33,582 nt of DNA from the NCBI RefSeq assembly GCF_001477055.1, contig NZ_LDRK01000005.1, positions 1 to 33,582 on the forward strand, in the 5' to 3' direction. This DNA is from Leucobacter chromiiresistens (lineage in GTDB: Bacteria > Actinomycetota > Actinomycetes > Actinomycetales > Microbacteriaceae). Position 1 is the stretch's first letter. Each line of letters opens with the position of its first letter. Below are positions 7,643 to 24,137 of this stretch, piece after piece. Below the pieces are notes generated by a model that saw nothing but the letters and a program-made list of their open reading frames with translations, was not told where the DNA came from and did not search any database. The position numbers and the translations under genes were made by a program.

Positions 7643-7685
7643 CCGCGCCGCAGCAGCACCGAAGCACTGAAGAAAGGGGACGGCC

Positions 7686-7949
7686 ATGGCCGAGATGTGG
7701 GAGCCGACCGACGAGATCGACGGCGACGAGGACCTGACGGTCACCGATCACCGCGATGAGGATGGGCCGCTCGTGAGCGCCGACGACGAGCAGTCGATCG
7801 AGACGACGACCGACGACCCCCGTGAGGCGCTCGAGGAGCTCGGCGAGGACGTCGCGTCCTCCCCGGCCCGTCGGGCGGAGGACACCGAGGTCGATCCGGA
7901 GGCCGCCGTGCACGGCGCCGACGATCGCGAATCGGGAGAGGCGCTCTGA
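7686..7949 (+). CDS. Small, strongly acidic hypothetical protein
   Basis: The 87-residue product has no recognised domain. Asp and Glu dominate throughout, with Thr and Ser; there is no Cys, no hydrophobic segment and only two Trp/Met-rich turns near the start (MAEMWEP). Predicted behaviour is a soluble, largely disordered acidic protein. An AAAGGGGA site lies 7-14 bases before the ATG, and codon use matches its neighbours, so it looks genuinely translated. The next gene starts 2 bases after its stop, implying co-transcription with the GCS2 ligase. Acidic disordered proteins of this size occur among general stress proteins, but I cannot assign a function. Confidence 0.75.
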   Translation: MAEMWEPTDEIDGDEDLTVTDHRDEDGPLVSADDEQSIETTTDDPREALEELGEDVASSPARRAEDTEVDPEAAVHGADDRESGEAL

Positions 7950-7951
7950 GC

Positions 7952-9064: not shown

Positions 9065-10074
9065 GCGGGTCGGGCCGCCGGCGCCGCGGCGGCCCGATCA
9101 CGCGGGAGGTCGACGGCGACGGCTTCGTCTACCGGCGCGACGGGCGCAGGCTGACGGCGGCGAAGGAGATCGCGCGGATCGAGGCGCTCGCGATCCCACC
9201 GGCGTGGACCGACGTGCGCATCGCCCGCGGCCCCTCGGCGAAGGTGCTCGCGCGGGGAATCGACGCGGCCGGCCGCACGCAGATGATCTACCACCCCCGC
9301 TTCCGGCAGCGGCGGGAGCGCGAGAAGTTCGCCCGCCTGGGCCGCTTCGGCGCCGCGCTCCCGAAGCTCCGAGCCCGCGTGGACCGGGACCTGCGTCGCA
9401 AGCGCCTCGGCAGGGAGCGCGTGGTGGCGTGCGTGATCCGCCTCATCGATCTCGAGTTCTTCCGCGTCGGCAACGCGGAGTACGCGGCCAAGCACGGCAG
9501 CTACGGCGTCACGACGCTCCGGGAGGAGCACATCGAGGCCACCGGGAGCTCCGTGCGATTCGACTTCGTCGGCAAGAGCGGGAAGCGGCACGCGCGCCGG
9601 GTGGCGGACCCCCGCATCGCCCGACTGATCGCGCGGCTCGAAGAGCTGCCCGGAGACGAGGTGTTCCGCTTCTTCGAGGACACGGGAGTGTCGCGGCAGG
9701 TGCGCAGCAAGCACGTGAACGCCTACGTCAAACGCGTGATGGGCGAGGAGTTCACCGCCAAGGACTTCCGCACCTGGGGAGGCAGCCGCATGGCGCTCTC
9801 CTCGCTGCTCGAGCACGACGAGGACGCGTTCCGCACGCAGAAGCGGGCGGCCGCCGCGACGCGGGAGGCGATCCGCTCGGCGGCGGAGCGGCTCGGCAAC
9901 ACGCCCGCCGTGACGAAGTCGTCGTACATCGACCCGCGGGTGCTCGCGCTCGCGGAGGACCGGGCGGCGCGGGAGCGGTTGCGCAAGGCGCGGAAGAAGA
10001 TGCGCCCCGGTGAGCACCTGAGCGTCGACGAGCAGTGCCTGCTCGCGCTGCTGGCCCGCCGAGCCCCGCGCTGA
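9061..10074 (+). CDS. DNA topoisomerase IB (eukaryote/poxvirus type)
   Basis: The 337-residue protein has the bacterial TopIB layout: a small N-terminal domain, then a tyrosine-recombinase-like catalytic domain. Visible active-site elements are Arg135 in LEFFRVGN, Lys172/Lys175 in FVGKSGKRH, Arg237 in DFRTWGGSR and the nucleophile Tyr289 in KSSYIDPRV. All expected catalytic positions seem intact. TopIB relaxes both positive and negative supercoils without ATP through a 3'-phosphotyrosyl intermediate. It is translationally coupled to the GCS2 ligase gene by an ATGA overlap. TopIB is scattered in bacteria such as Deinococcus and many Actinobacteria; its role in the cell is unclear, and the neighbouring trehalose and stress genes hint at damage or desiccation response (inference). 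Confidence 0.95.
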   Translation: MSGSGRRRRGGPITREVDGDGFVYRRDGRRLTAAKEIARIEALAIPPAWTDVRIARGPSAKVLARGIDAAGRTQMIYHPRFRQRREREKFARLGRFGAALPKLRARVDRDLRRKRLGRERVVACVIRLIDLEFFRVGNAEYAAKHGSYGVTTLREEHIEATGSSVRFDFVGKSGKRHARRVADPRIARLIARLEELPGDEVFRFFEDTGVSRQVRSKHVNAYVKRVMGEEFTAKDFRTWGGSRMALSSLLEHDEDAFRTQKRAAAATREAIRSAAERLGNTPAVTKSSYIDPRVLALAEDRAARERLRKARKKMRPGEHLSVDEQCLLALLARRAPR

Positions 10075-10380: not shown

Positions 10381-11841
10381 TCACGCCTCGGCGGTGGTGC
10401 GCAGGCGGTCGATGAGTTCGGTGGTGGAGTGATCGGGCACGTAGTCGAGGATCACCACCTCGCCGCCCGCACGTCGCACCTCCGCGGCCTCCTCCAGCAT
10501 CTCCGGCGTGTAGTCGCCGCCCTTCGCGTACACGTCGGGCCGCAGTTCACGGATCGTTGCGCACGCGGTGTCGTCGTCGAAGACGGTGACGTAGTCGACG
10601 CACGACAGCGCTGCCAGCACGTTCGCCCGGTCGCGCACCCCGTTCACGGGGCGCCCCGGGCCCTTCAGCCGTCGGGCGGAGTCGTCGCTGTTCAGCGCCA
10701 CGACGAGCACGTCGCCCAGTCTGCGGGCCTGCTTCAGCGATGCCGTATGCCCCCGGTGCAGCACGTCGAAGCAGCCGTTGGTGAACACGATGCGGTCGCC
10801 CGCGCGCCGGTGCACGTCGAGGCGCTCCGCGAGATCCGCCACGGAGACCTGGGGGTCCGGGGCCGCCGACGCCCGCAGCTCCAGCTCGTCCAGCGAGCAC
10901 CGGCACGTTCCGGTGCGCTCCACCGCGATGTCAGCCGCGAGCTGCGCGAGATCGACGGCCCGGGGGAGGGCGCACCCCGCGGCCCGGGCCACCGACAGCG
11001 CCGAGACGAACACATCGCCCGCCCCCGACGCCTGCTGCTCGGGAGCCGCATGCGCCCGAGTGCGATGCGGCGGGGCGTCAGGGGTGAGCAGCACGGTGCC
11101 CGTGCGGTCGAGCGTGACCACGACCGACTGCGCACCGCTGCGGCGCCGGAGCGCGTCGCCCGCGGCGATGGCGGCGTCCACGCGATCCTCACCCGAGCCG
11201 AGGCGCTCCCCGAGCAGCCGCTCCGTCTCGCCCGCGTTGGGCGTGATCACGTCGGGGCGGAGTGCGGCCCACCGCGCCGGGTCGTGCGCGTCGACGACGA
11301 TCAGGGCAGCGCGGGGCAGGGCCGCGAGCGCGGCGATCATCGTATCGTCGAGCAGCGCCGCGCCGTAGTCGCAGATCACGAGGGCGTCGCACTCGGCGAG
11401 CGCCTCGGCGAGGTCGTCGAGCAGCTGCTGCCGCACCCGATCGGGCCACGGCTCGCGCTGGGTGTCGTCGAGCCGGATGAGCACCTGGTCGGCGACCGAC
11501 ACGCGCGCCTTCGTCGTGGTGCGCGCGCCCGCGACGCGCTGCAGCGCCCGCACGTCGACGTCGGCCTCCGTCAGGCGCTCGCGCAGCCGATCGCCCGGCT
11601 CATCGGCCCCGATCGCGCCGAAGGCGCGCACGCGGGCGCCGAGCGCGGAGAGATTGCGGGCGGTGTTCGCCGCGCCGCCCGGCAGGTCGGAGGCGCCCGC
11701 GAGCTCCACCACGGGCGCCGGTGCCTCGCGCGCCACGCGATCGACCGTGCCGTGCCACCAGCGATCGAGCAGGAAGTCGCCGAGCACCGCGATGCGGGGC
11801 TGCTGCGCGCGAATGCGGGCGATGCTGTCGAGCGGAGTCAT
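10381..11841 (-). CDS. hldE: Bifunctional heptose-7-phosphate kinase / heptose-1-phosphate nucleotidyltransferase (HldE type), copy 1
   Basis: The 486-residue protein matches HldE in order and size. The N-terminal PfkB/ribokinase domain (about 1-320) has LPGGAANTARNLSALG with the substrate-contacting Asn, TPNAGETERLLG, and the catalytic SGAGD at about 272-275. The C-terminal nucleotidyltransferase (about 345-475) has NGCFDVLHRGH (HxGH near 359), LNSDDSARRLKGPGRP, YAKGGDYTPE and HSTTELI. HldE phosphorylates D-glycero-D-manno-heptose-7-phosphate at O1 and later adds AMP to heptose-1-phosphate, giving ADP-heptose. The ATG at 11841 has GAAAGGCGG upstream. It stands apart from the main heptose operon and is divergent from a GT9 gene. 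Nucleotide specificity (ADP versus another NDP) cannot be settled by eye. Confidence 0.9.
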   Translation of the reverse strand: MTPLDSIARIRAQQPRIAVLGDFLLDRWWHGTVDRVAREAPAPVVELAGASDLPGGAANTARNLSALGARVRAFGAIGADEPGDRLRERLTEADVDVRALQRVAGARTTTKARVSVADQVLIRLDDTQREPWPDRVRQQLLDDLAEALAECDALVICDYGAALLDDTMIAALAALPRAALIVVDAHDPARWAALRPDVITPNAGETERLLGERLGSGEDRVDAAIAAGDALRRRSGAQSVVVTLDRTGTVLLTPDAPPHRTRAHAAPEQQASGAGDVFVSALSVARAAGCALPRAVDLAQLAADIAVERTGTCRCSLDELELRASAAPDPQVSVADLAERLDVHRRAGDRIVFTNGCFDVLHRGHTASLKQARRLGDVLVVALNSDDSARRLKGPGRPVNGVRDRANVLAALSCVDYVTVFDDDTACATIRELRPDVYAKGGDYTPEMLEEAAEVRRAGGEVVILDYVPDHSTTELIDRLRTTAEA

Positions 11842-11912
11842 GATGACCGCCTTTCGGGGAGAGTGACGACCGGTCCGTTTGAGATCGGCCGGAAGCGGGC
11901 AGAAGAAGAGGA

Positions 11913-11927
11913 GGCGCGCTGCGCGCC
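11913..11927. promoter_or_regulatory. 15-bp palindrome in the divergent hldE/GT9 intergenic region
   Basis: GGCGCGC-T-GCGCGCC is a perfect 7-bp inverted repeat with one central base, sitting between the divergent starts at 11841 and 11964. It could be an operator for both genes. GC-only palindromes occur by chance in such DNA, so confidence is low. No convincing -10/-35 pair was seen in this 122-base gap. Confidence 0.3.
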
Positions 11928-11963
11928 GAACGCCGCACACGCACTGACGCACTGGAGGACCCC

Positions 11964-13136
11964 ATGCCGCACGACCCGCGACCCGCCCCCGAGACGATCC
12001 CGTCCGCCGAGGCGGCGGAACCGGTCGAGCGGCGGCCGATGGTGGCCCCTCCCGGCGAGCGGCTCGCCGACGTGCGCAGGATCGCGGTGCTGCGGGGCGG
12101 CGGCATCGGCGATCTGCTGTTCGCGCTGCCCGCGATCACGGCGCTCGCCGCGGCCTACCCCGACGCCGAGGTGACGCTCCTCGGTGCGCCCGCCGCGCGG
12201 CTGCTCGACGGGCGCGCCGGAGCCCCGCATCGCATCGTGGAGCTGCCCGTAGCGCCCGGAGTGCACGAACCGCGCGGAGCCGAGAGCGATCCGGCTGCGG
12301 TGGAGCGCTTCCTCGCGGAGCAGCGAGCGGAGGGGTACGACCTGGTCGCGCAGATGCACGGCGGCGGACGCTTCTCGAACCCCTTCGCCGCGGCGCTCGG
12401 GGCGCGCTGCACGATCGGCACGCGCACCGACGATGCGCTCGCGCTCGACCGCTCGCTGCCGTACGTCTACTTCCAGCACGAGGTGATGCGCTGGCTCGAG
12501 GTCGCGGGGCTCGTCGGGGCGCCGCCCGTCGACCTGGAGCCCCGCGTGCTCGTGACCCCCGAGGAGCTCGAGCACGGCCGCGAACGGCTCGGGGCGGCCC
12601 CGCGCACCGTCGTGGTGCATCCTGGAGCCACGGACCCGCGCAGGCGGTGGCCCGTCGAGCGATTCGCGGCCGTGGCCGCCGAGCTGACGCGGGCCGGGGC
12701 GCGGGTCGCGGTGATCGGCGACGACTCCGAGCGTGCGCTCGCCGACGCGTTCGCGGCGGGCGTGCTCGCCGCGGGCGCCGCCGAGCCGCTCAACCTCGCG
12801 GGTGAGCTGCCGTTCGGCGAACTGCCCGGTCTGCTCGCCGCCGCCGACCTCTGCATCGCGAACGACAGCGGCCCGCGCCATCTCGCGCAGGCGGTGGGCA
12901 CCGCCACCGCGTCCGTCTTCTGGTGCGGGAACCTGCTCAACGCCGGGCCCCTGGGCCGCGGGCGGCACCGCGCGCAGCTCTCGTGGACCACTCACTGCCC
13001 GGTGTGCGGGCGGAACAGCACACAGGTGGGGTGGACGGCTCCGAGGTGCGAGCACGACCTCTCGTTCGTCACCGATGTCGGCGTCGAAGCGGTGCTCGCG
13101 GATGCGCGAGCACTGCTCGAGGCGCACGCGGGCTGA
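11964..13136 (+). CDS. Glycosyltransferase family 9 (heptosyltransferase-like), copy 1
   Basis: The 390-residue GT-B enzyme opens, after a Pro/Glu-rich tail of about 35 residues, with RRIAVLRGGGIGDLLFALPA, the GT9 N-terminal signature. Later come VVHPGATDPRRRWPVERFA and the nucleotide-sugar motif IANDSGPRHLAQAVG. GT9 enzymes use ADP-heptose in lipopolysaccharide core synthesis; here the acceptor is unknown because this organism type has no LPS. Near the C-terminus lies a Cys cluster, HCPVCGRN then RCEHD, that resembles a zinc-binding knuckle. GGAGG sits 6 bases before the ATG. The gene is divergent from hldE copy 1 and convergent with the SDR gene, so it is a single-gene unit. Confidence 0.88.
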   Translation: MPHDPRPAPETIPSAEAAEPVERRPMVAPPGERLADVRRIAVLRGGGIGDLLFALPAITALAAAYPDAEVTLLGAPAARLLDGRAGAPHRIVELPVAPGVHEPRGAESDPAAVERFLAEQRAEGYDLVAQMHGGGRFSNPFAAALGARCTIGTRTDDALALDRSLPYVYFQHEVMRWLEVAGLVGAPPVDLEPRVLVTPEELEHGRERLGAAPRTVVVHPGATDPRRRWPVERFAAVAAELTRAGARVAVIGDDSERALADAFAAGVLAAGAAEPLNLAGELPFGELPGLLAAADLCIANDSGPRHLAQAVGTATASVFWCGNLLNAGPLGRGRHRAQLSWTTHCPVCGRNSTQVGWTAPRCEHDLSFVTDVGVEAVLADARALLEAHAG

Positions 13137-13165
13137 CGCGCGCGCGGGCGCCTCGATCCGGTCGG

Positions 13166-13876
13166 TCACGGCCATGACGGCTCGTCCTCGGGCGCGATGA
13201 CGAGTTCGCGCACCTCCGAGCGGGGCGGCTGCTGCAGGGCGAAGAGCACGGCGCGGGCGACGTTCGCGGGATCGTTGAGCTGCGCGTCGGCGGCGGGGCG
13301 GTACTGCTGGGGGCGGTCGTCGAAGAACGACGTCTGCATGCCCGCCGGAATGAGGGTCGTGACGCCGAGGCGCCCCGACGTCTCGGCCGCCAGCGCGCGT
13401 GAGAACCCGAGCACGCCGAACTTCGAGGCGCAGTACGCGGTGGCCTCGGGGAGGGCGCGCAGCGCCAGCGACGACGCGATCGTCACCACGCGCCCGTGCA
13501 CTCGCTCGAGGTGGGGCAGTGCGGCGCGCACCGTGGACACGGTGCCGAGCAGGTTCACGCCGATCACGCGCTCCCACTCGTCGGCTGCGACGTCCTCCAG
13601 CCGGCCGCACCGGTCGATGCCCGCCGCGGTGACGACCGCATCGATGCCGCCGAGCTCCTCGGCGACCGCTGCGACGGCGCGTTCGACCTGCGCTCGGTCG
13701 GAGACGTCGGCTTCCTGGGCGACCGCGCGATCGTGCCACGCGCTCACGTCGAGGTCGACGATCGCCGGGGTGCCCCCGGCCTCGAGCACGGCATGGGCGA
13801 CAGCGGCGCCGAGGCCGGAGCTGCCGCCCGTGATGAGGACGCGGCCGAGCGGAGTGGGAGTGGTCGAGAGGGTCAT
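13166..13876 (-). CDS. Short-chain dehydrogenase/reductase (classical SDR) in the heptose locus
   Basis: The 236-residue protein is a classical SDR: the NAD(P) motif is TGGSSGLGAAV near residue 17, the middle motif VTAAGI follows, and the catalytic Ser and YCASK (Tyr-x3-Lys) come later. An Asp after the second strand (VDLD) favours NAD over NADP. It is too short and lacks the extended-SDR layout expected of HldD, so it is unlikely to be the ADP-heptose 6-epimerase. It may oxidise or reduce a sugar or act on an unrelated substrate. The ATG has AAAGGA upstream. It follows hldE copy 2 on the same strand after a 107-base gap with an inverted repeat, so expression may be partly separate. Confidence 0.88.
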   Translation of the reverse strand: MTLSTTPTPLGRVLITGGSSGLGAAVAHAVLEAGGTPAIVDLDVSAWHDRAVAQEADVSDRAQVERAVAAVAEELGGIDAVVTAAGIDRCGRLEDVAADEWERVIGVNLLGTVSTVRAALPHLERVHGRVVTIASSLALRALPEATAYCASKFGVLGFSRALAAETSGRLGVTTLIPAGMQTSFFDDRPQQYRPAADAQLNDPANVARAVLFALQQPPRSEVRELVIAPEDEPSWP

Positions 13877-13939
13877 CGAGGGTCCTTTCTCAGGGGGATT
13901 CGCGAAGCTGCGGCGAGGTCCGCGCAGCGGGTCTTCGGG

Positions 13940-13976
13940 GGCCCGGCGAGCGTCGCGTGCGCGTGCCCGCCGGGCC
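13940..13976. terminator. Inverted repeat between hldE copy 2 and the SDR gene
   Basis: GGCCCGGCG (13940-13948) and CGCCGGGCC (13968-13976) form a perfect 9-bp stem with a 19-base loop, just downstream of the hldE copy 2 stop on the minus strand. No T-run follows, so it is at best an attenuator or an RNA-stability element that separates the SDR from the operon. Confidence 0.4.
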
Positions 13977-13983
13977 GGGGGCG

Positions 13984-15339
13984 TCAGCCGACGCGCGCGA
14001 TGGCCTCGGCGAGCGCCGTCGTCGACCTGCCGAGGTGGTACGGGAGCGTCAGCACCCGCCCGCCCCACGACTCGACGAGCGCGGCCTCCGGGAGCGACTG
14101 GGCGCTGTAGTCGCCGCCCTTCACCCAGATGTCGGGCCTCAGGCGGTCGAGCACGGCCTGCGGCCCGTCCTCCTCGAAGACCACGACGGCGTCGACGCAG
14201 GAGAGCGCCGTCAGCAGCTCGACGCGATCCCGCTCCGTGATGAGCGGCCGCTCTGCCCCCTTGAGACGGCGCACCGAATCGTCGGAGTTGAGGCAGACGA
14301 TGAGGCAGTCGCCGAGTCCGCGCGCGGCGGCGAGCGTGCGCACGTGGCCCGCGTGCAGCAGGTCGAAGCAGCCCCCCGTCGCGACGACGGTGCCGCCTGA
14401 AGCGCGGACCTGCTCCGCCACCGCGAACGCATCGGCGTCCGCTGCGTTCGCGCGCGGCAGTCGCGCGGCGCCGAGCGCCGCGACGCCCCCGGAGGCGAGG
14501 AAGTCTCCCGCAGCATCGACGCCTCGGCGCACCGCCTCCGGAAGCGGCTCGCCCTCCGCGAGCGCGATCAGCGCGGAGGAGGCGTACCGGTCGCCCGCGC
14601 CGCACGCGTCCGCCGCCTCGACGGGGCGCGCCGGGATGAGCGCAGGTGCATGGTCGGCGTCGAGCAGCAGGGCGCCCTGCGAGCCGAGGGTGACGGAGAT
14701 CGCGATGCACCCCCACCGTTCGCGCAGACGGGCTGCGGCCTCCGCCGCTGCGTCCGGCTCGGGCGCGGTGCCGGCGGCCTTCGCCGCCTCCGAGAGGTTC
14801 GGAGTGACGAGACGCGTCGACGGCACGGGGTCGGCGCCCCGCGGGTGCGGATCCCAGACGAGCGGCACTCGCGCTCCGCGGCGGTGCAGGGCGACGCGAA
14901 TCTCGGGGTGCTCGGTGAGCGCGCGGCCGTAGTCGGAGACGATGATCGCGTCGGCCTCCGAGATCGAGGCGATCATGTCGCGCGTGATGTGGGGGAGCAC
15001 GGGATCCCCGCATCCGTCGTCGATGCGGGCGACCGGCTGCCCGCCCGCCCGGAGACGGGTCTTGACGGGCGTGGGGGCGGGCAGCGCGCCGGCGACGACG
15101 CGGATGCCGTCGAGGTGCTCCCGCAGCCGCTCCGCCGGCGCATCCGCGGAGAGCGCCGTGACGAGGGTCACGTCGTGCCCGTCGTGCAGCAGCATGCGGG
15201 CCACGAGCCCCGCCCCGCCGGCGCGCGACTGCCGGGACTGCACATCCACGACCGGCACGGGGGCGTCGGGCTGGAAGCGCTCGGCCACCCCGTCGATGTC
15301 TTCATCGAGGAGGGTGTCGCCGACGACGACGATCTTCAT
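13984..15339 (-). CDS. Bifunctional PfkB-type kinase / nucleotidyltransferase (HldE type), copy 2
   Basis: The 451-residue protein has the HldE domain order: PfkB kinase (about 1-300) with TPNLSEAAKAAG and CGAGDRY (about 244-248), then a nucleotidyltransferase (about 310-450) with GGCFDLLHAGH (HxGH near 326), LNSDDSVRRLKGAERP, WVKGGDYS and RSTTALAEAI. The usual GGAAN substrate motif near the N-terminus is changed to GGAGLVA, losing the Asn that copy 1 keeps. This hints at altered kinase substrate. Its ATG overlaps the gmhA stop (ATGA), placing it as sixth gene of the coupled operon and supporting a heptose role. Whether both copies act on the same heptose, or one makes a different anomer or nucleotide form, is open. 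Confidence 0.88.
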   Translation of the reverse strand: MKIVVVGDTLLDEDIDGVAERFQPDAPVPVVDVQSRQSRAGGAGLVARMLLHDGHDVTLVTALSADAPAERLREHLDGIRVVAGALPAPTPVKTRLRAGGQPVARIDDGCGDPVLPHITRDMIASISEADAIIVSDYGRALTEHPEIRVALHRRGARVPLVWDPHPRGADPVPSTRLVTPNLSEAAKAAGTAPEPDAAAEAAARLRERWGCIAISVTLGSQGALLLDADHAPALIPARPVEAADACGAGDRYASSALIALAEGEPLPEAVRRGVDAAGDFLASGGVAALGAARLPRANAADADAFAVAEQVRASGGTVVATGGCFDLLHAGHVRTLAAARGLGDCLIVCLNSDDSVRRLKGAERPLITERDRVELLTALSCVDAVVVFEEDGPQAVLDRLRPDIWVKGGDYSAQSLPEAALVESWGGRVLTLPYHLGRSTTALAEAIARVG

Positions 15340-15956
15340 GATTGCGGCTCCTTTCCGACGCACGCGTCGAACACTTCGCACAGGCCGTGAATGGCCGCGA
15401 GCTGGCACTCCTGCACATGCGGGGACGCCCCGTCCAGGCAGATCGCGTCGTCGCAGAGACGGGCGAGCGGGTTCGGCCCCGGCCCGGTGAGCGCCCAGCT
15501 GGTCGCTCCGGACTCCTCTGCGGCGCGCGCCGCCTCGAGGAGGTTCGGGCTGCCCCCGCTGGTGGAGAGCAGCAGCACGATGTCGCCCGCCCGGGCGTGC
15601 GCGCGCACCTGGCGGGCGAACACCTGGTCGAAGCCGTAGTCGTTGCCGATCGCGGTGACGCTCGACGACTCGGCGTGCAGGGAGATCGCCGAGTAGGCGG
15701 CGCGATCCTCGCGGTAGCGCCCGACGAGCTCGGCGGTGAGGTGCTGCGCCTCGGCGGCCGATCCTCCGTTGCCGGCGACGAGCAGGCGGCGCCCGGCCTT
15801 CAGCCGGTTCGCGAGCTCGCGACCCCACGATTCGAGATGGTCGGCGTGCCGTCGCGCGTGGTCGAGTGCGCGGGCGAGCGCGTCGAAGTGGCTCGAGACG
15901 AGGGTGGCCGTCGGCGCCTCCGCCGCGATGGTCGGGGTGAGGGTGGGGGTGGTCAT
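15336..15956 (-). CDS. gmhA: Phosphoheptose isomerase (SIS domain, GmhA)
   Basis: The 206-residue protein has the GmhA core: GNGGSAAEAQHLTAELVGRY, with the SIS phosphate loop and the conserved Glu of AEL(V/T)GRY. GNDYGFDQVFARQV, LSTSGGSPNLLEA and a C-terminal VQECQLAAIHGLCE helix follow. It converts sedoheptulose-7-phosphate to D-glycero-D-manno-heptose-7-phosphate, the committed step of nucleotide-heptose synthesis. It overlaps the GT4 gene upstream (15953-15956) and hldE copy 2 downstream (15336-15339), both ATGA. The first 18 residues (Thr/Pro/Ala-rich) are an unconserved extension. Size and motifs are close to the E. coli enzyme of 192 residues. Confidence 0.94.
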   Translation of the reverse strand: MTTPTLTPTIAAEAPTATLVSSHFDALARALDHARRHADHLESWGRELANRLKAGRRLLVAGNGGSAAEAQHLTAELVGRYREDRAAYSAISLHAESSSVTAIGNDYGFDQVFARQVRAHARAGDIVLLLSTSGGSPNLLEAARAAEESGATSWALTGPGPNPLARLCDDAICLDGASPHVQECQLAAIHGLCEVFDACVGKEPQS

Positions 15957-17245
15957 AGTGCGGCCTCCGCGAGGTGGGCGCCCGTGGCGCTGTCGATGCG
16001 TGTGGTGATCTGCTGCGAGTGGTGCTGCGCTCGCTCGCGCAGGGTGCGCGCGTAGATGAGCTCGGTGCGAGCGGCGACGCGCTCCCAGCTGTAGCGGTGC
16101 TCGACGCGAGCGCGGCCCGCGGCTCCGAGCGCTGCGGCGAACGCCGGGTCCGCGCGCAGACGGGCGAAGGCCTGCGCGACCGCCTCCGGATCCTGGGGCG
16201 GTACGAGCAGCCCGGTGCCCTCGTGCACGACGGTGTCGCCGAGGCCGCCCACGTTCGCGGCGACGACGGGCGTGCCGCTCGCCATGCTCTCGAGCGGCAC
16301 GATCCCGAACGGCTCGTACCACGGGGTGCAGACGACGGCGTCGGCCGCTCGGATCAGGGCGGGAACATCTTCGCGGGGAACGCGGCCGAGGAATCGCACC
16401 TGCCCGGCCACGCCGAGCGCTTCCGCGAGGTCGGCGAGACGCCGGGTCTCGGCGTCGGGGCCGTCCGCGCCGGCCGGCGCGTCGCCGGTGCCGACGATGT
16501 GCAGCTCCACGTCCGCGACCCCCTGCTCGCGGAGCACGCCCAGGGCGCGGATCGCGATGTCGACGCCCTTGCGCGGAACGAGGCGGCCGAGGCTCAGCAC
16601 CCGGAAGGCGCCGGGCCGACGCGTCGGCCGATCGGCGTGCGCGAACATCTCGAGATCCACCCCGCACGGGGCGATGTCGATGCGCTCCGCCGGGATGCCG
16701 AGCGCGTGCAGCTCCTCCACCTCGTCCGGGCACGTCGCGATGACGGTGTCGACGCGTCGTCCCACCAGGGGCTCGAGCCGCTCGCGCTCGGGCGGGCTCG
16801 TGTCGGCCGCGCCCTGGAACCGACGCTTGACCGAGCCGAGCGCGTGGAAGGTGTGGAGCACCGGCGGGTGGCCGGTGCCGCGCTCGGCCGCGGCATCGAG
16901 CGCGGCGATGCCCGACATCCAGAAGTGGCTGTGCACGACGTCGGGCCGGTCGAACCGCCAGGCGGCGGCGAGCCCCTCGGCGAGCGCGGGGAGGTGCGGC
17001 AGCAGGTCGTCCTTCGGCACGTGCCGTTGTGGGCCGGCGGCGAGGTGCACGACTTCGACGCCCGGGCAGAGCGCCACCCGCGTGCGCGTCGACGGGTCGT
17101 CGCGCCGCGTGTACACCGTCACCCGATGGCCTCGCTCGGCCAGCGCGCGGGAGAGGGCGGCGACGTGCACGTTCTGCCCGCCCGCGTCGACGCTTCCCGG
17201 CGTCGCCAGGGGGTTGGCGTGCTCGGAGACCATGGCGATCTTCAT
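15953..17245 (-). CDS. Glycosyltransferase family 4
   Basis: The 430-residue GT-B protein starts MKIAMVSEHANPLATPG, followed by the SVDAGGQNVHV loop shared with sucrose-phosphate-synthase-like and MshA-like GT4 enzymes. The donor-binding region shows LSLGRLVPRKGVDIAI and the EX7E element FGIVPLESMASGTPVV. It is a retaining enzyme by family; donor and acceptor cannot be read from sequence. AAGGAG lies 8 bases before the ATG in addition to the ATGA overlap with the preceding gene. Inside a heptose operon it probably adds a further sugar to the same glycan. MshA itself (mycothiol) is an alternative by similarity, but the context argues against it. Confidence 0.9.
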   Translation of the reverse strand: MKIAMVSEHANPLATPGSVDAGGQNVHVAALSRALAERGHRVTVYTRRDDPSTRTRVALCPGVEVVHLAAGPQRHVPKDDLLPHLPALAEGLAAAWRFDRPDVVHSHFWMSGIAALDAAAERGTGHPPVLHTFHALGSVKRRFQGAADTSPPERERLEPLVGRRVDTVIATCPDEVEELHALGIPAERIDIAPCGVDLEMFAHADRPTRRPGAFRVLSLGRLVPRKGVDIAIRALGVLREQGVADVELHIVGTGDAPAGADGPDAETRRLADLAEALGVAGQVRFLGRVPREDVPALIRAADAVVCTPWYEPFGIVPLESMASGTPVVAANVGGLGDTVVHEGTGLLVPPQDPEAVAQAFARLRADPAFAAALGAAGRARVEHRYSWERVAARTELIYARTLRERAQHHSQQITTRIDSATGAHLAEAAL

Positions 17246-18249
17246 GATGCGACTCCTTCCGTCGTCAGCTGCGGCGCCCGGGTGCGGGATCGCGCCCGGC
17301 GCGCGTGCGCCTCGTGCGCGTCCGCGAGCACCGCGTCCCAGTCGTCGAGGAAGCGCGGGAGGCCGTAGCGGGCTGCAGCCGCCTCCCGCGCCACGGCGCC
17401 GCGGCGCCGCGCCTCGTCGGGGTCCCGGAGCAGGATGTCGGCGGTGGCGACGAGCTCGGCGGGGTCCGCCGACAGCGCGCCCGCCTCCGGCGGCACGGCC
17501 CGGCTCGCCTCCGTCGCGTCGAGCACGAGCACCGGCATGCCGAGGAACATCGCCTCGAGCAGCGACAGGCCGAGCGATGTCCAGCGCATCGGATGCACGT
17601 AGGCCCGACGGCGGGCCAGTTCGGCGTGCAGGTGCGCGGTCGGCAGGTCGCCGACCACCTGCAGGCGGTCCTCGCCGAGTCCGAGCGCCGCGGGCAGGCG
17701 GTCGCCCGCGATGCCGAAGCAGTCGAGCCGCCCCGCGCTCGCGAACGCCGGGAGCAGGTCGGTGCCCGTCACCCGACCGCGCCGCACCGGCTCGTTGATG
17801 ACCACGCCGAGCGCTTCGAGTTCGCCCGAGTACTGCTGACCGGGGTCGGGGATGCCGTGCTCGATGACGACGGTGGGCGCCGCTCCGCAGTCCCAGATGA
17901 GACGGTTGAAGTGGGTGACGTGCACGATGGGGATGTCGGTGCGCTCGCTGAGGAAGTGCCGCTCCGAGACGGGCGACTGCTTCGGCGTGTTGTGCTCCAC
18001 GAAGACGGTCGCGACGTCGCGGCCGAGTCGCCGCCCCAGCAGCGACTCCGCCCAGTCGAGCTCCTCCGTGCGCTGCAGCACCACGAGGTCGACGTCCGCC
18101 TCCGCGAGCTCGTCGGGTTCCACGCGCCGCGCGTGCGCGGGCAAGGGGGGCATGACGCGGCCGGTCTCGGCGGGCACGAGGTACTCGTGCGATCCGCTCA
18201 AGAAGGCCTGCATCCAGCCCCCGTGCAAGTACCACACCAGAATCTTCAT
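17242..18249 (-). CDS. GT-B fold glycosyltransferase, family uncertain (GT4-like)
   Basis: The 335-residue protein begins MKILVWYLHGGWMQAFLSGS, has VFVEHNTPKQSP and FNRLIWDCG in the acceptor half, and LGLSLLEAMFLGMPVLVLDA (an EX7E-like donor motif) in the C-terminal half. It looks like a divergent GT4-type retaining transferase. A GGAAGGA site precedes the ATG, and both ends overlap neighbours by ATGA (18246-18249 and 17242-17245). The linkage to GT9 and gmhA genes implies a step in building the heptose-containing glycan. It could also transfer a nonheptose hexose; no substrate residues can be assigned. HGGW near the start is unusual for GT4 proteins and may be a lineage marker. Confidence 0.82.
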   Translation of the reverse strand: MKILVWYLHGGWMQAFLSGSHEYLVPAETGRVMPPLPAHARRVEPDELAEADVDLVVLQRTEELDWAESLLGRRLGRDVATVFVEHNTPKQSPVSERHFLSERTDIPIVHVTHFNRLIWDCGAAPTVVIEHGIPDPGQQYSGELEALGVVINEPVRRGRVTGTDLLPAFASAGRLDCFGIAGDRLPAALGLGEDRLQVVGDLPTAHLHAELARRRAYVHPMRWTSLGLSLLEAMFLGMPVLVLDATEASRAVPPEAGALSADPAELVATADILLRDPDEARRRGAVAREAAAARYGLPRFLDDWDAVLADAHEAHARRARSRTRAPQLTTEGVAS

Positions 18250-19337
18250 CGTCGTCCTTCCTCTCCGACCCGCGGCGGCGGTGCCGCGCCCGCGGGCTGT
18301 GCGTGATGCGCGCGCGCCTGTGCCGGCGCCGCGAGATCGTCGACGGCGGCGAGCACCGTCTCGGGGGCGACCCCGGCGAGGCACGGGTGCCCCGCGATGG
18401 GGCACTCCCGGGCCCGCGAACCCGCGCACGGCGCGTGCTGGTCGCCGAGCAGTCGCACGGGTACGCCGTAGGGCGCCCACTTCACGGCGGGCACCACGGG
18501 CGAGAACAGGCTCACCACGGGCGTGCCGACTGCGGCTGCGAGATGCGCGGGCCCGCTGTTGCCGGAGACGAGCACGTCGGCGCCCGCGAGCACGCCGGCG
18601 AGCTCGAGGGTCGTGCACCGTCCGGCGAGGTCGATCGCCTCCGGGGCGTCGTCGCGGATGCGCGCGGTCAGCTCCGCCTCGCCGCGGCTCCCCGTGAGCA
18701 CCACGGTGCGCCCGGAGTCGGTCAGCATTCGCGCCAGGCGCGCGAAGTGCTGCACGGGCCAGCGCCGCGCGGGCACGGCGGCGCCCGCGTGCAGCGCCAC
18801 GTAGGGAGCGTCGCCCGTGAGCCCGCTGGTATCGGGCGTCGGTACGACTGCGAGGCGCCCGTCGTCGCCTCCGGGGAAGCCGGCCGCCTCGGCGATCGCG
18901 AGCGCGCGCTCGGGCTCGGGGAGCTCCTCGCTCAGATCCTCGCCGGGCCTGAGGCGCACGTCGAGGAGCGATCCGGGGTGGTCGACCGATGCCCCGCTGA
19001 TGCGCTCGATCCCCGCCAGCCGCAGCAGCAGCGCGAGGGGCAGGGGGGACTGGTGGAAGGAGGTGAGGATCACCGCCTCGCGAGCGCCCGATTCGCGCAC
19101 CCGGTCGATGAGCTGCTCGGTGTGCTCGCGGGTGACCTCCCGCCACGGCTCCGAGATCCAGGGCGCCTCCCAGACGATGGTGTCGCTGATCCCGGGCAGC
19201 AGCGCCGCCCCGCCCGCTCCCAGGGGGCCGCAGAGCATGATCACCTCGGCCTGACGCGCGACGGCGCGAACGGCGGGCCCGGAGACGAGCACGTCGCCCA
19301 TGCTGTCGAGCCGCGCCACGAGCACGGGGCCGCTCAT
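18246..19337 (-). CDS. Glycosyltransferase family 9 (heptosyltransferase-like), copy 2
   Basis: The 363-residue protein has the GT9 pattern: VLVARLDSMGDVLVSGPAVR at the start, SFHQSPLPLALLLRLAG, VALHAGAAVPARRWPVQHFA for donor binding, and VSGNSGPAHLAAAVGTPVVS. The late segment CAGSRARECPIAGHPCL resembles the Cys-containing loop seen in LPS heptosyltransferases. The last 25 residues are a Pro/Ala-rich tail without a conserved motif. The ATG at 19337 overlaps the stop of the gmhB-like gene (ATGA) and its stop overlaps the next transferase. This is the heptosyltransferase inside the biosynthetic operon and so the best candidate for adding the first heptose. Confidence 0.9.
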   Translation of the reverse strand: MSGPVLVARLDSMGDVLVSGPAVRAVARQAEVIMLCGPLGAGGAALLPGISDTIVWEAPWISEPWREVTREHTEQLIDRVRESGAREAVILTSFHQSPLPLALLLRLAGIERISGASVDHPGSLLDVRLRPGEDLSEELPEPERALAIAEAAGFPGGDDGRLAVVPTPDTSGLTGDAPYVALHAGAAVPARRWPVQHFARLARMLTDSGRTVVLTGSRGEAELTARIRDDAPEAIDLAGRCTTLELAGVLAGADVLVSGNSGPAHLAAAVGTPVVSLFSPVVPAVKWAPYGVPVRLLGDQHAPCAGSRARECPIAGHPCLAGVAPETVLAAVDDLAAPAQARAHHAQPAGAAPPPRVGEEGRR

Positions 19338-19897
19338 CGGTCGCCGCCCGCTTCATCGCCGCCCGCCTCGTCGCCGAGTGCGATCGCGACCGCCTCCGCG
19401 ATCGTGGCCGCGACCGTGGTCGCGTCGGCGCGCTCCTGAGCCAGCGTGAGTCGTGTCGGCACGAGGATCCCTCGCGCTCCGGCGGCCTCCGCCGCGTCGA
19501 CGTCGGCGCCGATGTCGCCGATCATCACGACGTTCGCCGGTGCGACGTCCAGTTCGCGTGCCGCCGAGAGGATCATGCCCGGCCGCGGCTTGCGGCACTC
19601 GCAGCCGTCGCGGGGCGCGTGCGGGCAGACGCGCCACAGGTCGAACGGGCCGAGCAGCTGCTCGACGCGCTCGTTCACGCGGCGCACCTGCTCATGCGTG
19701 AGCAGGCCGCGGGCGATGCCCGACTGGTTGCTGATCACTCCGATGGGAATGCCGGCCGCACGCACGCGGTCGACCGCCGCGCGCGCGTCGGGCATCGCCT
19801 CGACCGCGTCGGGGTCGCCGTTGTACGGAACGTCGACGATGAGGGTGTCATCGCGATCGAACAGCACGGCGTGCACGGGCGGGGAGGGTTCAGTCAT
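19334..19897 (-). CDS. gmhB: D-glycero-D-manno-heptose-1,7-bisphosphate phosphatase-like HAD protein (GmhB type)
   Basis: The 187-residue HAD protein has motif I LFDRDDTL (Asp14 and Asp16), motif II ISNQSGIARG, the GmhB zinc loop CPHAPRDGCECRKPRPGM (about 92-109; four Cys/His ligands), and motif IV MIGDIGADVDAAEAAG. The zinc loop separates GmhB and histidinol-phosphatase-type HADs from others; gmhA in the same operon favours GmhB. It removes the C7 phosphate from heptose-1,7-bisphosphate between the two HldE reactions. It is the first gene of the six-gene coupled chain. The ATG at 19897 has GGGAG only about four bases upstream; downstream in-frame GTG codons are alternative starts but would cut into the first strand. 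Confidence 0.88.
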   Translation of the reverse strand: MTEPSPPVHAVLFDRDDTLIVDVPYNGDPDAVEAMPDARAAVDRVRAAGIPIGVISNQSGIARGLLTHEQVRRVNERVEQLLGPFDLWRVCPHAPRDGCECRKPRPGMILSAARELDVAPANVVMIGDIGADVDAAEAAGARGILVPTRLTLAQERADATTVAATIAEAVAIALGDEAGGDEAGGDR

Positions 19898-19946
19898 ACC
19901 TCTCCCGTGCCCCGAAGCAGGAGAAGTAAACGGACTGCCCGACCCC

Positions 19947-19975
19947 TTGCGCCCCACCCGCTCCTGCGGTAGTCC
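19947..19975 (+). promoter_or_regulatory. Candidate promoter for the GT9 gene at 20040
   Basis: TTGCGC (19947-19952), a 17-base spacer and TAGTCC (19970-19975) match a sigma-70-like arrangement on the plus strand. It sits in the 142-base divergent gap between gmhB and GT9 copy 3. The same stretch has interleaved inverted repeats (GCAGGAG 19917-19923 with CTCCTGC 19961-19967; GGACT 19932-19936 with AGTCC 19971-19975). I found no clear promoter for the gmhB operon on the other strand. Confidence 0.4.
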
Positions 19976-20039
19976 AGTGGGTGACGCCCCGCTCGGTCGA
20001 CGCATGCTCGCGCGGGGTGCATGAGAGGGGAACCGACCT

Positions 20040-21026
20040 ATGACCCGACGGCACCGTCCCGTGCTGCTCGCGCTGCGCACGCTGAAGCTGGGGGACCTGC
20101 TGGTGGCGGTGCCGGCGCTGCGCGCGCTGCGCCGCGCCCATCGCGATCACCGGATCGTGCTCGCGGCGCCGGGCTGGCTCTCCCCGATCGTGCGACTCGT
20201 CGACGCCGTCGACGAGCTCCTGCCCACTCCCGGGCTCGACGATCCGCTGCCGATCGAGCCGGGCAGCGTCGACATCGCGGTCAACCTGCACGGCAACGGC
20301 CCCGAGAGCCGAGACATCATCGCAGCGCTCCGACCGCGCCGCCGGTACGCGCACCGGCTCCCCGACGACCCCGAGCCCGCAGGAGCCGAGGTCGAGCCGG
20401 GTCCGGAGTGGATCGACGGCATGCTCGAGCGCGAGCGGTGGGTGCGGCTGGTCTCGGCCTTCGGCGCCGACGGAGACCCCGACGAGGTGCGGATCGCGGT
20501 GCCCGAGGCGGTGCCGCCCGTGACGGGCGCGGTGGTCGTGCACGTGGGCGCGTTCTACGGGTCGCGCCAGTGGCCCGTCGAGCGGTTCGCCGAGGTGGCG
20601 CGCGCACTGCGGGCCGAGGGGCGCCGCGTGGTGGTGACCGGCGATGAGCGGGACGAGCCGCGAGCCGCCGCGGTCGCTGCGGCGGCGGGTCTGCCCGAGG
20701 AGGACGTGCTCGCGGGGCGGATCGGCCTCGCCGAGTTCGCCGCGGTCATCGCTCGAGCGCAGCTCGTCGTCACCGCCGATACGGGGGCCGGGCACCTCGC
20801 ATCGGCGTACGGCGTGCCGTCGGTCGTCATCTTCGGACCGGCGCCCCCCGAGGAGTGGGGGCCGCCGCCCGGCCCGCATGCGGTGCTCACGGACGCCTCG
20901 GTGCGGCGCGGAGACGCCTTCGCCGCGGACCCCGACCCGGCGCTGCTCGCGGTCACGGCGGCGGATGTGCTCGGGGCGGCTCGTGAGGTGATGCGCGCAC
21001 CGGCCGAGCTCGGGGGGACGCGGTGA
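20040..21026 (+). CDS. Glycosyltransferase family 9 (heptosyltransferase-like), copy 3
   Basis: The 328-residue protein is a compact GT9 member: LLALRTLKLGDLLVAVPALR at the N-terminus, VNLHGNGPESRDI, VVHVGAFYGSRQWPVERFA, and VTADTGAGHLASAYGVPSVV in the donor-binding domain. It lacks the Cys-rich loop of the other two GT9 proteins, so it likely uses another acceptor. The ATG at 20040 has GAGGGG about 11 bases upstream. The gene is divergent from the gmhB operon and convergent with the sigma factor gene. Three different GT9 genes in one 10-kb locus suggest several successive heptose additions (inference). Confidence 0.88.
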   Translation: MTRRHRPVLLALRTLKLGDLLVAVPALRALRRAHRDHRIVLAAPGWLSPIVRLVDAVDELLPTPGLDDPLPIEPGSVDIAVNLHGNGPESRDIIAALRPRRRYAHRLPDDPEPAGAEVEPGPEWIDGMLERERWVRLVSAFGADGDPDEVRIAVPEAVPPVTGAVVVHVGAFYGSRQWPVERFAEVARALRAEGRRVVVTGDERDEPRAAAVAAAAGLPEEDVLAGRIGLAEFAAVIARAQLVVTADTGAGHLASAYGVPSVVIFGPAPPEEWGPPPGPHAVLTDASVRRGDAFAADPDPALLAVTAADVLGAAREVMRAPAELGGTR

Positions 21027-21062: not shown

Positions 21063-21905
21063 CTACGCCCGCGCGGGATCGGCGCTCAGGGCGGCCCGCA
21101 GTCGCTGCAGAATGCTCGCCAGCAGGCGCGATACCTGCATCTGACTGACCCCGCACTCCCGCGCGATCTCGGACTGCGTCAGCTGCTCCTCGAAGCGCAG
21201 GCGCACGATGCGACGCTCCTCCTCGCTGAGGGTGCGCGTCGCGCGTTCGAGTGTCAGCGCCAGCTCGGTCCGGGTGAACTCCGTCTCCCGGTAGGGAAGC
21301 GAGTCTGCGAGCGTGAGGTCCTCGGAAGCGCCGGGGATGGGCGTGTGGAGCGAGATCGCATTGCGGGCCGAGTGGCACTGCACGGCCTCGGCCACCAGAG
21401 CGAGCGGGCGGCGCAGCACTGCGGCCAGTTCTGCGATGCGGGGCGCGCGGCCGAGCTCCTGCTCGAGCATCTCGCGCACCGCGGGAACCTCGATCGCGAG
21501 TTCCTGGAGCCTCCGCGGCGGTCGCACGAACCACGACGTGTCCCGCAGATACTGCTTGATCTCGCCCGAGATGGTGGGAACGGCGAACGAGACGAGGTCG
21601 TCGCCGACTTCGGGGTCGAAGCGCTCGACGGCTTTCGCGAGCCCGATGCAGGCGACCTGCAGCACGTCCGCGGCGTCCTGCTGGCGCACCCGGTATCGGC
21701 GGGCGATCGAGCGGGCGAGATCGAGGTACTCGACGACGACGCGCTGGTGCAGCCGCCGCCGCCCGGCCGCGTCCGCCCGCCGGGCGGCCGACAGCAGCGT
21801 CATCGCGAGCGCGTTGCGGGCCTCGTCGGCGGCGGCTCGGTCGCCGGGAGTGCCCGGGACAGCGGGTGCACGGGTTGCTGCGAACGCGGGATTCGGGGCG
21901 AGCAT
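21063..21905 (-). CDS. RNA polymerase sigma factor, SigB/SigF/SigG stress family
   Basis: The 280-residue protein has region 2 (about 60-130) with YLDLARSIARRYR, DVLQVACIGLAKAVERFDP and SFAVPTISGEIKQYLRD, then WFVRPPRRLQEL, the fingerprint of the SigB/F/G group. Region 3 and a region 4 helix-turn-helix (LTQSEIARECGVSQMQVSRLL, ending near 265) follow. Group members direct general stress or sporulation genes and are normally held by an RsbW-type anti-sigma kinase; none is encoded next to it here. The ATG has GGAGGAGG 6 bases upstream. The first 40 residues are a low-complexity extension. Candidate target promoters in this window do not match a promoter consensus I can name. Confidence 0.93.
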   Translation of the reverse strand: MLAPNPAFAATRAPAVPGTPGDRAAADEARNALAMTLLSAARRADAAGRRRLHQRVVVEYLDLARSIARRYRVRQQDAADVLQVACIGLAKAVERFDPEVGDDLVSFAVPTISGEIKQYLRDTSWFVRPPRRLQELAIEVPAVREMLEQELGRAPRIAELAAVLRRPLALVAEAVQCHSARNAISLHTPIPGASEDLTLADSLPYRETEFTRTELALTLERATRTLSEEERRIVRLRFEEQLTQSEIARECGVSQMQVSRLLASILQRLRAALSADPARA

Positions 21906-22169: not shown

Positions 22170-22175
22170 GTGCGC

Positions 22176-23720
22176 ATGACTGCACTGTGGCACCGCACCG
22201 GTTCGTCCGTTCCCGTCTCGCCCGCCCGCCCGTCGCCGATCGGCCGTCGTTTCGATACGGTCGTGGTCGGCGCCGGACTGACGGGGCTCGTCACCGCCGT
22301 GCTGCTCTCCCGAGCCGGGCAGCGCGTCGCGGTGCTCGAGGCGCGCACCGTCGGAGCGGTGACCACCGGGCATACGACCGGCAAGCTCAGCCTGCTGCAG
22401 GGGAGCGTGTACTCGCGCATCCGCGGGCACGCGGGGGACGAAGCGGTGCAGGCCTACGCCGAGGCGAACCGCGAGGGCCAGGCGTGGATGATCCGAGAAC
22501 TCGAACGCCTCGGCCTGCCGGTCGACCGGCGCACCGCCGTCACCTACGCGAACGACGATGCGAACGTCGGCGACCTCGAGCGCGAGCTCGACGCCTGCCG
22601 CGCAGCGGGAGTGGACGTCGAGTGGACCGACGACACCGGCCTGCCGTTCGCGACCGCCGGGGCGATCTCGCTCGGTCACCAGGTGCAGCTGCAGCCCATC
22701 GACGTGCTGGCCGCGCTCGCCGCCGAAGTGCTCGAGCGCGGCGGGGAGATCCACGAGCGCATGCGGGTGCACGGCGTGGAGGGGGAGGGCGACGGCCTCG
22801 ACGTGCAGACGGCTGACGGCGCAGTCGCCGCCGACGCGTGCGTGCTGGCGACCGGCGTGCCGATCCTCGACCGGGGGCTCTTCTTCGCCCGTCTCGAACC
22901 GTTCCGGTCGTTCGTCGCCGCCTACGACGTGCCGGAGGAGCGCATCCCGCGCGGCATGCACGTGTCGATCGACGCCCCGGATCGGTCGCTGCGCACCGCC
23001 CGGGGCGCGAAGGGGGAGACCCTGGTGCTCGTCGGCGGCGGCGGCCACACGACCGGGCGAGGGGGTGACACGGTGCGCACGCTCGCCGAGCTCGATGCGT
23101 GGGCGCAGCAGCACCTCGGGGCGGGCCCCCGCGTGAGCTGGTGGGCCGCGCAGGACTACCAGCGGCACGCGGCGCTCCCGTACGCCGGGCCGCTCGCCGG
23201 AGGGGGTGGGCGCATCTACACCGCGACGGGGTACGACAAGTGGGGTATGACGAACGCGGTCGCCGCGAGCCTCGCGATCGTGTCGCAGATGCTCGGCGGC
23301 AGGCTCGACTGGGCGGAGACCATGCGAGAGGCGGGCCCCGGGGTCGCGGGCGTCGCCGACGCCGTGCGGGTGAACGCGGAGGTCGCCGCCCACGTGGCGG
23401 GCGATTGGACGCGGGCCGTGCTGAGCGGCTCGGGCGCCGCCGACTTGGCCGAGGGGGAGGGCCGGGTGGTGCGCGAGGGCGCGCGCCCCGTCGCCGTCTC
23501 GCGCGTCGACGGCAAGCTGTGCCGCGTCTCCGCCATCTGCACGCATCTCGGCGGCATCGTGAACTGGAACCCGGCCGAGCGCAGCTGGGACTGCCCGCTC
23601 CACGCCTCCCGCTTCTCGGCGACCGGCGAGGTGCTCGAGGGCCCGGCGGTGCGGCGCCTCTCCGAGGTGGGCGGCGCGGCCGAGGGCGACGCGGACCGCG
23701 CCGCGGCCGCCGAAGGCTAG
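22176..23720 (+). CDS. FAD-dependent oxidoreductase with C-terminal Rieske [2Fe-2S] domain
   Basis: The 514-residue protein combines a DAO-type FAD fold (dinucleotide loop VVVGAGLTGLVTAVLL near residues 29-45; GHTTGKLSLLQG; late TGYDKWGMTNAVAAS flavin segment) with a Rieske cluster domain. The cluster ligands are Cys455-Thr-His457 and Cys473-Pro-Leu-His476. The layout matches YhfW-like proteins of Bacillus and other Gram-positives, whose substrate is unknown. The flavin probably oxidises an amine or similar substrate and passes electrons through the cluster (inference). It stands alone between the divergent sigma factor and the next stress cassette. The motif-bearing leaderless promoter puts it with the other stress-type genes of the window. 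Confidence 0.92.
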   Translation: MTALWHRTGSSVPVSPARPSPIGRRFDTVVVGAGLTGLVTAVLLSRAGQRVAVLEARTVGAVTTGHTTGKLSLLQGSVYSRIRGHAGDEAVQAYAEANREGQAWMIRELERLGLPVDRRTAVTYANDDANVGDLERELDACRAAGVDVEWTDDTGLPFATAGAISLGHQVQLQPIDVLAALAAEVLERGGEIHERMRVHGVEGEGDGLDVQTADGAVAADACVLATGVPILDRGLFFARLEPFRSFVAAYDVPEERIPRGMHVSIDAPDRSLRTARGAKGETLVLVGGGGHTTGRGGDTVRTLAELDAWAQQHLGAGPRVSWWAAQDYQRHAALPYAGPLAGGGGRIYTATGYDKWGMTNAVAASLAIVSQMLGGRLDWAETMREAGPGVAGVADAVRVNAEVAAHVAGDWTRAVLSGSGAADLAEGEGRVVREGARPVAVSRVDGKLCRVSAICTHLGGIVNWNPAERSWDCPLHASRFSATGEVLEGPAVRRLSEVGGAAEGDADRAAAAEG

Positions 23721-23738
23721 CGACCGCGCGCGCAGCTG

Positions 23739-23776: not shown

Positions 23777-23808
23777 CGAGCGCACGACGTGAAGGGAGAG
23801 GATGGTCG

Positions 23809-24075: not shown

Positions 24076-24137
24076 CCGGCGCGCCGAACGCGGCGCAGCC
24101 ACCGCAGACCGAACGAACGCACGATCGAGGAGGACGC

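Follow-up and report, generated by a model that had tools for sequence, protein, structure and literature searches.

We analysed a stretch of 33,582 nucleotides of Leucobacter chromiiresistens (the window), which is an entire contig (NZ_LDRK01000005.1) of a 2.79 Mb draft genome that is 93.7% complete. The window carries ten genes for the synthesis and transfer of heptose and, next to them, a gene for a SigB/SigF/SigG-type sigma factor. We propose, with a probability of roughly 0.6, that these genes form a sigma-controlled stress module of the type of the Streptomyces cwg operon, which makes an envelope oligosaccharide containing D,D-heptose. The parts of this proposal differ in strength. Judging by the sequences, it is highly probable that the locus makes nucleoside diphosphate (NDP)-heptose and probable that a dedicated sigma factor controls it, while for a product linked to the envelope, argued by analogy, the odds are about even. 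The locus is not unprecedented but belongs to the known and unsolved cwg type; new are the link to the sigma factor, the promoters, the way in which HldE1 differs from HldE2 and a related cassette in Burkholderiales.

Heptose genes and their kinship with the cwg operon

A first-pass annotation of the window had listed GmhA, a GmhB-like phosphatase, two HldE enzymes, three GT9 proteins, a GT4, a further GT-B transferase (here GTB) and an SDR, and all ten genes were recovered by a Pfam and NCBIfam profile search of the window. Its description of six genes linked by five successive overlaps also held. On the minus strand GmhB (19334–19897, heptose-1,7-bisphosphate 7-phosphatase type with the zinc loop) is followed by GT9b (18246–19337, heptosyltransferase family), GTB (17242–18249, a GT4-fold transferase and the signature of the locus), GT4 (15953–17245, MshA/sucrose-phosphate-synthase-like), GmhA (15336–15956, sedoheptulose-7-phosphate isomerase family) and HldE2 (13984–15339), each gene overlapping the next by 4 bases. 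The gene for the classical SDR oxidoreductase (13166–13876), which recurs beside HldE2 in Microbacteriaceae and mycobacterial loci, starts ∼100 bp past this chain and lies on the minus strand as well, as does HldE1 (10381–11841). The two other heptosyltransferase-family genes, GT9a (11964–13136) and GT9c (20040–21026, divergent from GmhB), are plus-strand units, and the draft genome showed no GT9 gene besides the three of this locus. The extent given in the first-pass annotation was correct for the ten genes but missed the adjacent sigma factor gene (21063–21905, minus strand), the pair of promoters and the fact that HldE1 and HldE2 differ.

For GmhA we obtained an E-value of 8e-43 with TIGR00441, under the cut-off of that model, and an alignment with solved phosphoheptose isomerases. 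GmhB aligned with solved heptose-bisphosphatase-type proteins with CPH...CxC in register. HldE1, which combines PfkB and CTP_transf_like domains, scored 186 bits against TIGR02199 (cut-off 181.5) and HldE2 scored 188 bits. By family, the isomerase, kinase, phosphatase and nucleotidyltransferase of NDP-D,D-manno-heptose synthesis are all present in the window, which supports the earlier claim of a complete pathway from sedoheptulose-7-phosphate to NDP-heptose with dedicated transferases. Going by these families, GmhA would convert sedoheptulose-7-phosphate to heptose-7-phosphate, the kinase domain of HldE would form the 1,7-bisphosphate, GmhB would strip the 7-phosphate and the transferase domain of HldE would yield NDP-heptose. 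Rfam and tRNA scans gave no matches.

The GmhA, HldE, GmhB and GT9 families are common to the locus and the ADP-heptose pathway of the lipopolysaccharide (LPS) inner core (GmhA-HldE-GmhB-HldD-WaaC/F). Unlike that pathway, the genome has two HldE enzymes and no detected HldD or LpxC, and the GT9 proteins reach the cut-off of none of the LPS heptosyltransferase models listed. LpxC, the sole lipid A gene sought, had no match in the draft genome (∼94% complete); an acceptor other than LPS would therefore be needed, as had been suggested for an LPS-free host. No protein of the draft genome exceeded the HldD cut-off (best score 99.6 versus 274.6 bits), and the sugar would therefore stay in the D,D form.

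The cwg operon of S. coelicolor (SCO6179-6190) comprises 12 genes for a putative cell wall glycan and is a vancomycin-responsive target of sigma-E. The published accounts, in the parts available to us, do not identify its product; they list a phosphoheptose isomerase (cwgH), a bifunctional enzyme (cwgI), a dehydratase (cwgD) and a putative heptosyl transferase (cwgE) (PMC6767563, PMC5839063, PMC5882110). For comparison we used the loci of the best 80 of 122 GTB relatives in named genomes, a set from which records very near the window's genome may have been left out. The gene maps used in our comparisons come from a simple codon-score gene caller, and their gene starts and small genes are uncertain. 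Counts of motifs and gene order in Microbacteriaceae refer to 32 loci (one earlier map had 34 loci including duplicates). The gene-order comparison suggested in the first-pass annotation showed the run GmhB-GT9b-GTB-GT4-GmhA-HldE2 unbroken in 22 of the 32 Microbacteriaceae loci and in 47 of the 59 loci of the Streptomyces set (some of them cut by contig ends), and the arrangement is therefore not due to chance. The run is rearranged in Nocardia and Mycobacterium loci. Thirty of the 59 Streptomyces-set loci show a 12-gene run (UXS-carbamoyltransferase-GT2-GmhB-GT9b-GTB-GT4-GmhA-HldE2-GT9c-GT2-GT2) that agrees by position with the products listed for cwgB-E and cwgG-J.

Judged from sequence, the core of the window matches the equivalents of cwgD-J in order, with GT9b at the cwgE and GTB at the cwgF position and with GT9c (cwgJ position) present but divergent. 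This match is one of gene order and published product list, the S. coelicolor sequence itself being outside the loci set. The window and the cwg operon have in common GmhB, GT9, GTB, GT4, GmhA and HldE in the same order plus a GT9c homologue. Unlike the operon, the window adds the SDR, GT9a and a second HldE and has a linked SigB/F factor with GTTT/GGGNA promoters, whereas cwgA (UXS-like), cwgB (carbamoyltransferase), cwgC, cwgK and cwgL, which we sought among the genes of the window, are absent beside its core. The earlier guess that the locus type might be partly known was right. Its distribution is patchy and wide: we found GmhA in 9 of 54 genomes of the genus and GTB in 55 of 299 genomes of the family and 98 of 394 of the class. 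The closest named relative among the matches listed was Leucobacter sp. L43, with a GTB that is 86% identical. Three Microbacteriaceae loci (L133, L142 and L150) hold a GTB homologue and no other heptose-core gene in ∼20 kb.

The two HldE enzymes differ at a C-terminal motif. As related in PMC11461863 and PMC11573728, Tang et al. 2024 report that enzymes with an arginine in (F/L)XXGRSTT accept CTP and UTP as well. The motif reads YVPDHSTT in HldE1, without the arginine, and YHLGRSTT in HldE2, with it. Having dropped fragments of <300 aa and four gapped Microbacteriaceae HldE1 rows, we found that, among Microbacteriaceae rows with letters at the site, 24 of 25 HldE2 proteins carry arginine but only 1 of 16 HldE1 proteins does; in the set of Streptomyces and others 49 of 50 HldE2 proteins carry it; all seven HldE2 of Mycobacterium and Nocardia had tyrosine. 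HldE2 carries GRSTT at the same site as the STTR5 heptose nucleotidyltransferases, which are promiscuous for nucleoside triphosphates, and differs from these enzymes in its first motif residue and in being paired with the arginine-less HldE1. Because of the published arginine rule, HldE1 is expected by analogy to make mainly ADP-heptose and HldE2 to make CDP- and UDP-heptose as well.

Putative promoters and the linked sigma factor

Promoters of the SigB/SigF/SigG family have the consensus GTTT...GGGTA, which the promoter motif of the locus resembles. We searched the 150 bp upstream of the genes in the Microbacteriaceae loci for GTTT-N14..17-GGGNA and dropped genes with <100 bp of upstream sequence. 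The pattern occurred upstream of gmhB in 21 of 23 cases and of GT9a in 19 of 24, compared to only 5 of the 567 remaining called genes; from shuffles ∼0.2 matches would be expected for each of the gmhB and GT9a sets. Two of the five other matches lie before a GT9b at the head of its run, in loci (L125, L129) for which the caller gave no gmhB. All 19 loci whose stretch includes the sigma gene had the gmhB motif, as did 2 of the 4 loci lacking that gene in the stretch. The window holds two matches in all, the putative SigB/F-type promoters GTTT-N15-GGGCA (19908–19931, minus strand), 34 nt upstream of the GmhB ATG, and GTTT-N16-GGGCA (11877–11901, plus strand), 87 bp upstream of the GT9a ATG.

We took the gmhB start to be the first in-frame start after the motif, which was the called start in 17 of the 21 loci and an earlier one in 4. 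This start lies 34–36 nt from GTTT and 10–11 nt past the last A in all 21, and a ribosome-site-like word stands between motif and start in seven of them, including the window. The short distance and the occurrence of that word in only 7 of 21 loci make a leaderless or nearly leaderless gmhB mRNA likely, and for the window a very short leader is predicted. A similar motif was found upstream of GTB in 9 of 11 Mycobacterium loci and of GmhB in both Nocardia loci. Nine mycobacterial loci (L094, L098, L106, L107, L111, L113, L115, L117 and L119) show a SigF-type GTTT-N15-GGGTA before GTB and several neighbours; we found no report of such a link in mycobacteria in the literature searched.

We also looked for the sigma-E-type pattern AAC-N16/17-SGTC. 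None was found within 300 bp upstream of gmhB or GT9a in the window, and only 1 of 23 loci had a match in the 150 bp upstream of gmhB. Upstream of cwgA homologues the pattern occurred in 5 of 61 cases compared to 137 of 1293 other genes. It is unenriched there and makes a poor test, so that these counts neither support nor exclude sigma-E control in the Streptomyces relatives. A dyad search at cwgA gave no clear promoter, partly because some cwgA starts are apparently miscalled.

The sigma factor has sigma-70 regions 2, 3 and 4, and its best family is TIGR02980 (SigB/SigF/SigG) with 222.8 bits versus a cut-off of 234.35. The genome holds one other, weaker relative. Among the 54 genomes of the genus a close homologue (43–95% identity) occurs in exactly the nine that have GmhA, the window's genome included, and always <6 kb from GmhA (Fisher p = 2e-10, relatedness ignored). 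None of the 45 GmhA-negative genomes has a close homologue: in 41 nothing closer than a paralogue of ∼30% identity occurs, and the other four, each <85% complete, gave no sigma match whatever. Unlike a general stress sigma factor, the protein thus has close homologues in the genus only where the locus is present. The adjoining Rieske oxidoreductase gene, on the other hand, occurs in 19 of the 54 genomes, ten of them without the heptose locus. From motif, linkage and co-occurrence we infer that the SigB/F-type factor is dedicated to the locus and would direct polymerase to the GTTT-N15/16-GGGNA promoters at gmhB and GT9a.

Product of the locus and alternative explanations

In the proposed module GT9a, GT9b and GT9c would add heptose, GT4 and GTB would add other sugars, and the SDR may modify a sugar, which is the weakest step. 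GT4 scored 243 bits against TIGR03449 (MshA; cut-off 462.5), and another copy in the genome scored 286 bits, also under the cut-off. The identification of GT4 as the mycothiol synthase MshA was rejected, as the score is far under the cut-off and a higher-scoring copy exists elsewhere in the genome. Its nearest solved proteins were a sucrose-phosphate synthase (SPS) and MshA-type entries. GTB was over none of the NCBIfam cut-offs listed. Its predicted structure (mean pLDDT 91) had ten best PDB matches with query TM values of 0.66–0.74, which we take to be GT4-type enzymes such as BshA, PimB' and SPS, and on this model GTB is classed as a GT4-type GT-B glycosyltransferase. The sigma family suggests stress as the trigger, and the kinship with the cwg operon suggests an acceptor in the envelope. 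In S. coelicolor cwgA is described as activated by salt supplementation, and in a salt-tolerant Frankia an 'ADP-heptose:LPS heptosyltransferase', possibly homologous to the window locus, is described as raised under salt. Both agree with the stress reading, indirectly and by analogy.

Of the 14 plasmid records matched, ten were from Burkholderiales and carried relatives of GTB (32–38% identity). All five that we examined of these ten carry a cassette with homologues of GmhB, GT9, carbamoyltransferase, GT2, GTB, GT4 and UXS, and the ∼25 kb fetched around each of the five contained no GmhA or HldE at E 1e-6. Burkholderiales hosts would have LPS heptose enzymes elsewhere, and a cassette that consumes heptose nucleotide yet is separate from LPS would fit. 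Near the three annotated cassettes lies a gene for an ABC exporter that carries a response-regulator receiver domain at its C-terminus (L197:1655–4345, L202:2210–4954, L203:14018–16681), a possible export route in which the receiver may gate export. PIG-L deacetylase genes also occur near all three (Pfam confirmed in two). An Arthrobacter plasmid shows the gene order of the window including the sigma factor, with the motif 53 bp before the gmhB match. The mobilizable Clavibacter plasmid pCCa (L199) carries a SigBFG-like sigma gene with a GTTT/GGGTA motif ∼130 bp upstream of it, together with GTB and GT9a homologues; the 14.8 kb inspected contained no genes for heptose synthesis.

Several observations weigh against the proposed stress module. 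GmhA, GmhB and the whole-length HldE score under the NCBIfam equivalog cut-offs, and the sigma factor is 11.5 bits under that of TIGR02980. The gene cwgD, published as a dehydratase, was equated with GmhB by position alone; presumably the dehydratase label fits a HisB-like naming. The HldE2 motif begins with Y where F or L is published, and both of the two Nocardia HldE1-like proteins carry the arginine. Within the locus we recognised neither a polymerase nor a flippase nor a lipid transferase for initiation, and a wall polymer would need them from elsewhere; a polymer and a linkage to wall or lipid, both raised earlier, are no more than candidates. The two motif matches in the window are not rare by themselves (0.25 expected by chance; two or more in 4 of 100 shuffles). 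Genome-wide we obtained 17 matches compared to 3 for the reversed pattern, most of them off convincing gene starts; the two of the window are the clear ones, with L166 and L161 as possible weak extras. In two loci (L141 and L151) the motif stands before gmhB although the fetched stretch holds no sigma gene. The counts are moreover non-independent, as the loci are related by descent and the window and L143 are near-identical. The case for the promoters rests on position and conservation. Finally, the motif is absent from every heptose-gene class of the 59 Streptomyces-set loci (0) and from Mycobacterium GmhB (0/8). GTTT/GGGNA control is thus not universal for the cwg core, and from the sequences the same core seems to be wired to different sigma factors by lineage.

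The product could instead be soluble or secreted, a heptose oligosaccharide or glycoside serving as osmolyte, protectant or small molecule, which we consider unlikely. A simple hydropathy scan showed no clear membrane protein in the locus (three single marginal peaks), and a protectant would suit control by a stress sigma factor. The acceptors of sucrose-phosphate synthase and MshA-type enzymes, the nearest solved relatives of GT4, are small phosphorylated molecules; the GTB model resembles, among others, BshA and similar GT4 enzymes whose acceptors are small; and PIG-L deacetylases, encoded near the annotated Burkholderiales cassettes, occur in the mycothiol and bacillithiol pathways. However, the control of the S. 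coelicolor operon by sigma-E and vancomycin points to the envelope, three GT9 and two GT4-fold enzymes, with further GT2s in Streptomyces, suggest a larger glycan, and the ABC exporter gene near three of three annotated Burkholderiales cassettes also speaks against a soluble product.

A cwg-like glycan might also be made under another regime, with GTTT/GGGNA read by the housekeeping or some other sigma factor while the linked one controls something else. The linkage could reflect a shared island, and L141 and L151 would fit this explanation. It is rendered distinctly improbable by the fixed distance of the motif to the gmhB start in 21 of 21 loci, by the absence of the motif before 562 of 567 other genes and by a close sigma homologue that, unlike the neighbouring Rieske gene, occurs in the genus only together with the locus. 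Still less credence is given to heptose placed on a protein, as a glycoprotein or by autotransporter-like heptosylation: enzymes with GT9 and GT4 folds mostly modify glycans, lipids or small molecules. E. coli does use NDP-heptose to heptosylate proteins (cited in PMC11461863, PMC11573728), but we noticed no constant surface-protein neighbour among the annotated neighbour clusters, which are part of all clusters. LPS synthesis is the best-known context of the GT9 and HldE families, which would suit a relic LPS-core locus from a Gram-negative donor that no longer functions. This we rejected as having almost no chance of being correct: the genome has no LpxC or HldD, the frames are intact, the promoters and the order across many actinobacterial genera are conserved, and GTB is spread through family and class as counted above.

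Beyond the stress module proposed for the window, a speculative and rather doubtful picture is that of a widespread non-LPS heptose glycan system joining Actinobacteria and Burkholderiales. A transferase cassette would be fed by its own GmhA and HldE or by the host LPS pathway and would be switched by stress sigma factors in several lineages; Microbacteriaceae would keep two heptose-nucleotide pools, ADP-heptose from HldE1 and CDP/UDP-heptose from HldE2, that serve different transferases. In the literature searched this is not recognised as one system. If true, CDP/UDP-heptose would gain a physiological function, and the class to which the cwg product belongs would be known. With a simple switch of one sigma gene and two promoters, the window holds a compact and self-regulated version of the locus in an actinobacterium with a small genome, which makes the question testable, and the paired HldE enzymes lend themselves to a test of what CDP- and UDP-heptose do. 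Gram-positive heptose nucleotides would also bear on sensing by ALPK1. The connection of ALPK1 with NDP-heptose, raised in the first-pass annotation, is established in general in the portions consulted of the published work (PMC11461863, PMC11573728) but is not distinctive for this locus.

Genes around the locus

On the HldE1 side, positions 7169–10074 of the window adjoin the locus and encode a polyketide-cyclase-like protein, a glutamate-cysteine ligase family 2 protein and a topoisomerase IB in a row, which is retained in the closest relatives (loci L143 and L144). One long gene at 4658–6955 combines trehalose-phosphate synthase (GT20) and trehalose-phosphatase domains and represents a fused OtsA-OtsB. 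Adjoining the sigma gene, 22170–25019 encode the FAD/Rieske oxidoreductase, a charged protein of only 88 aa, and an SDR that, we assume, resembles general stress proteins.

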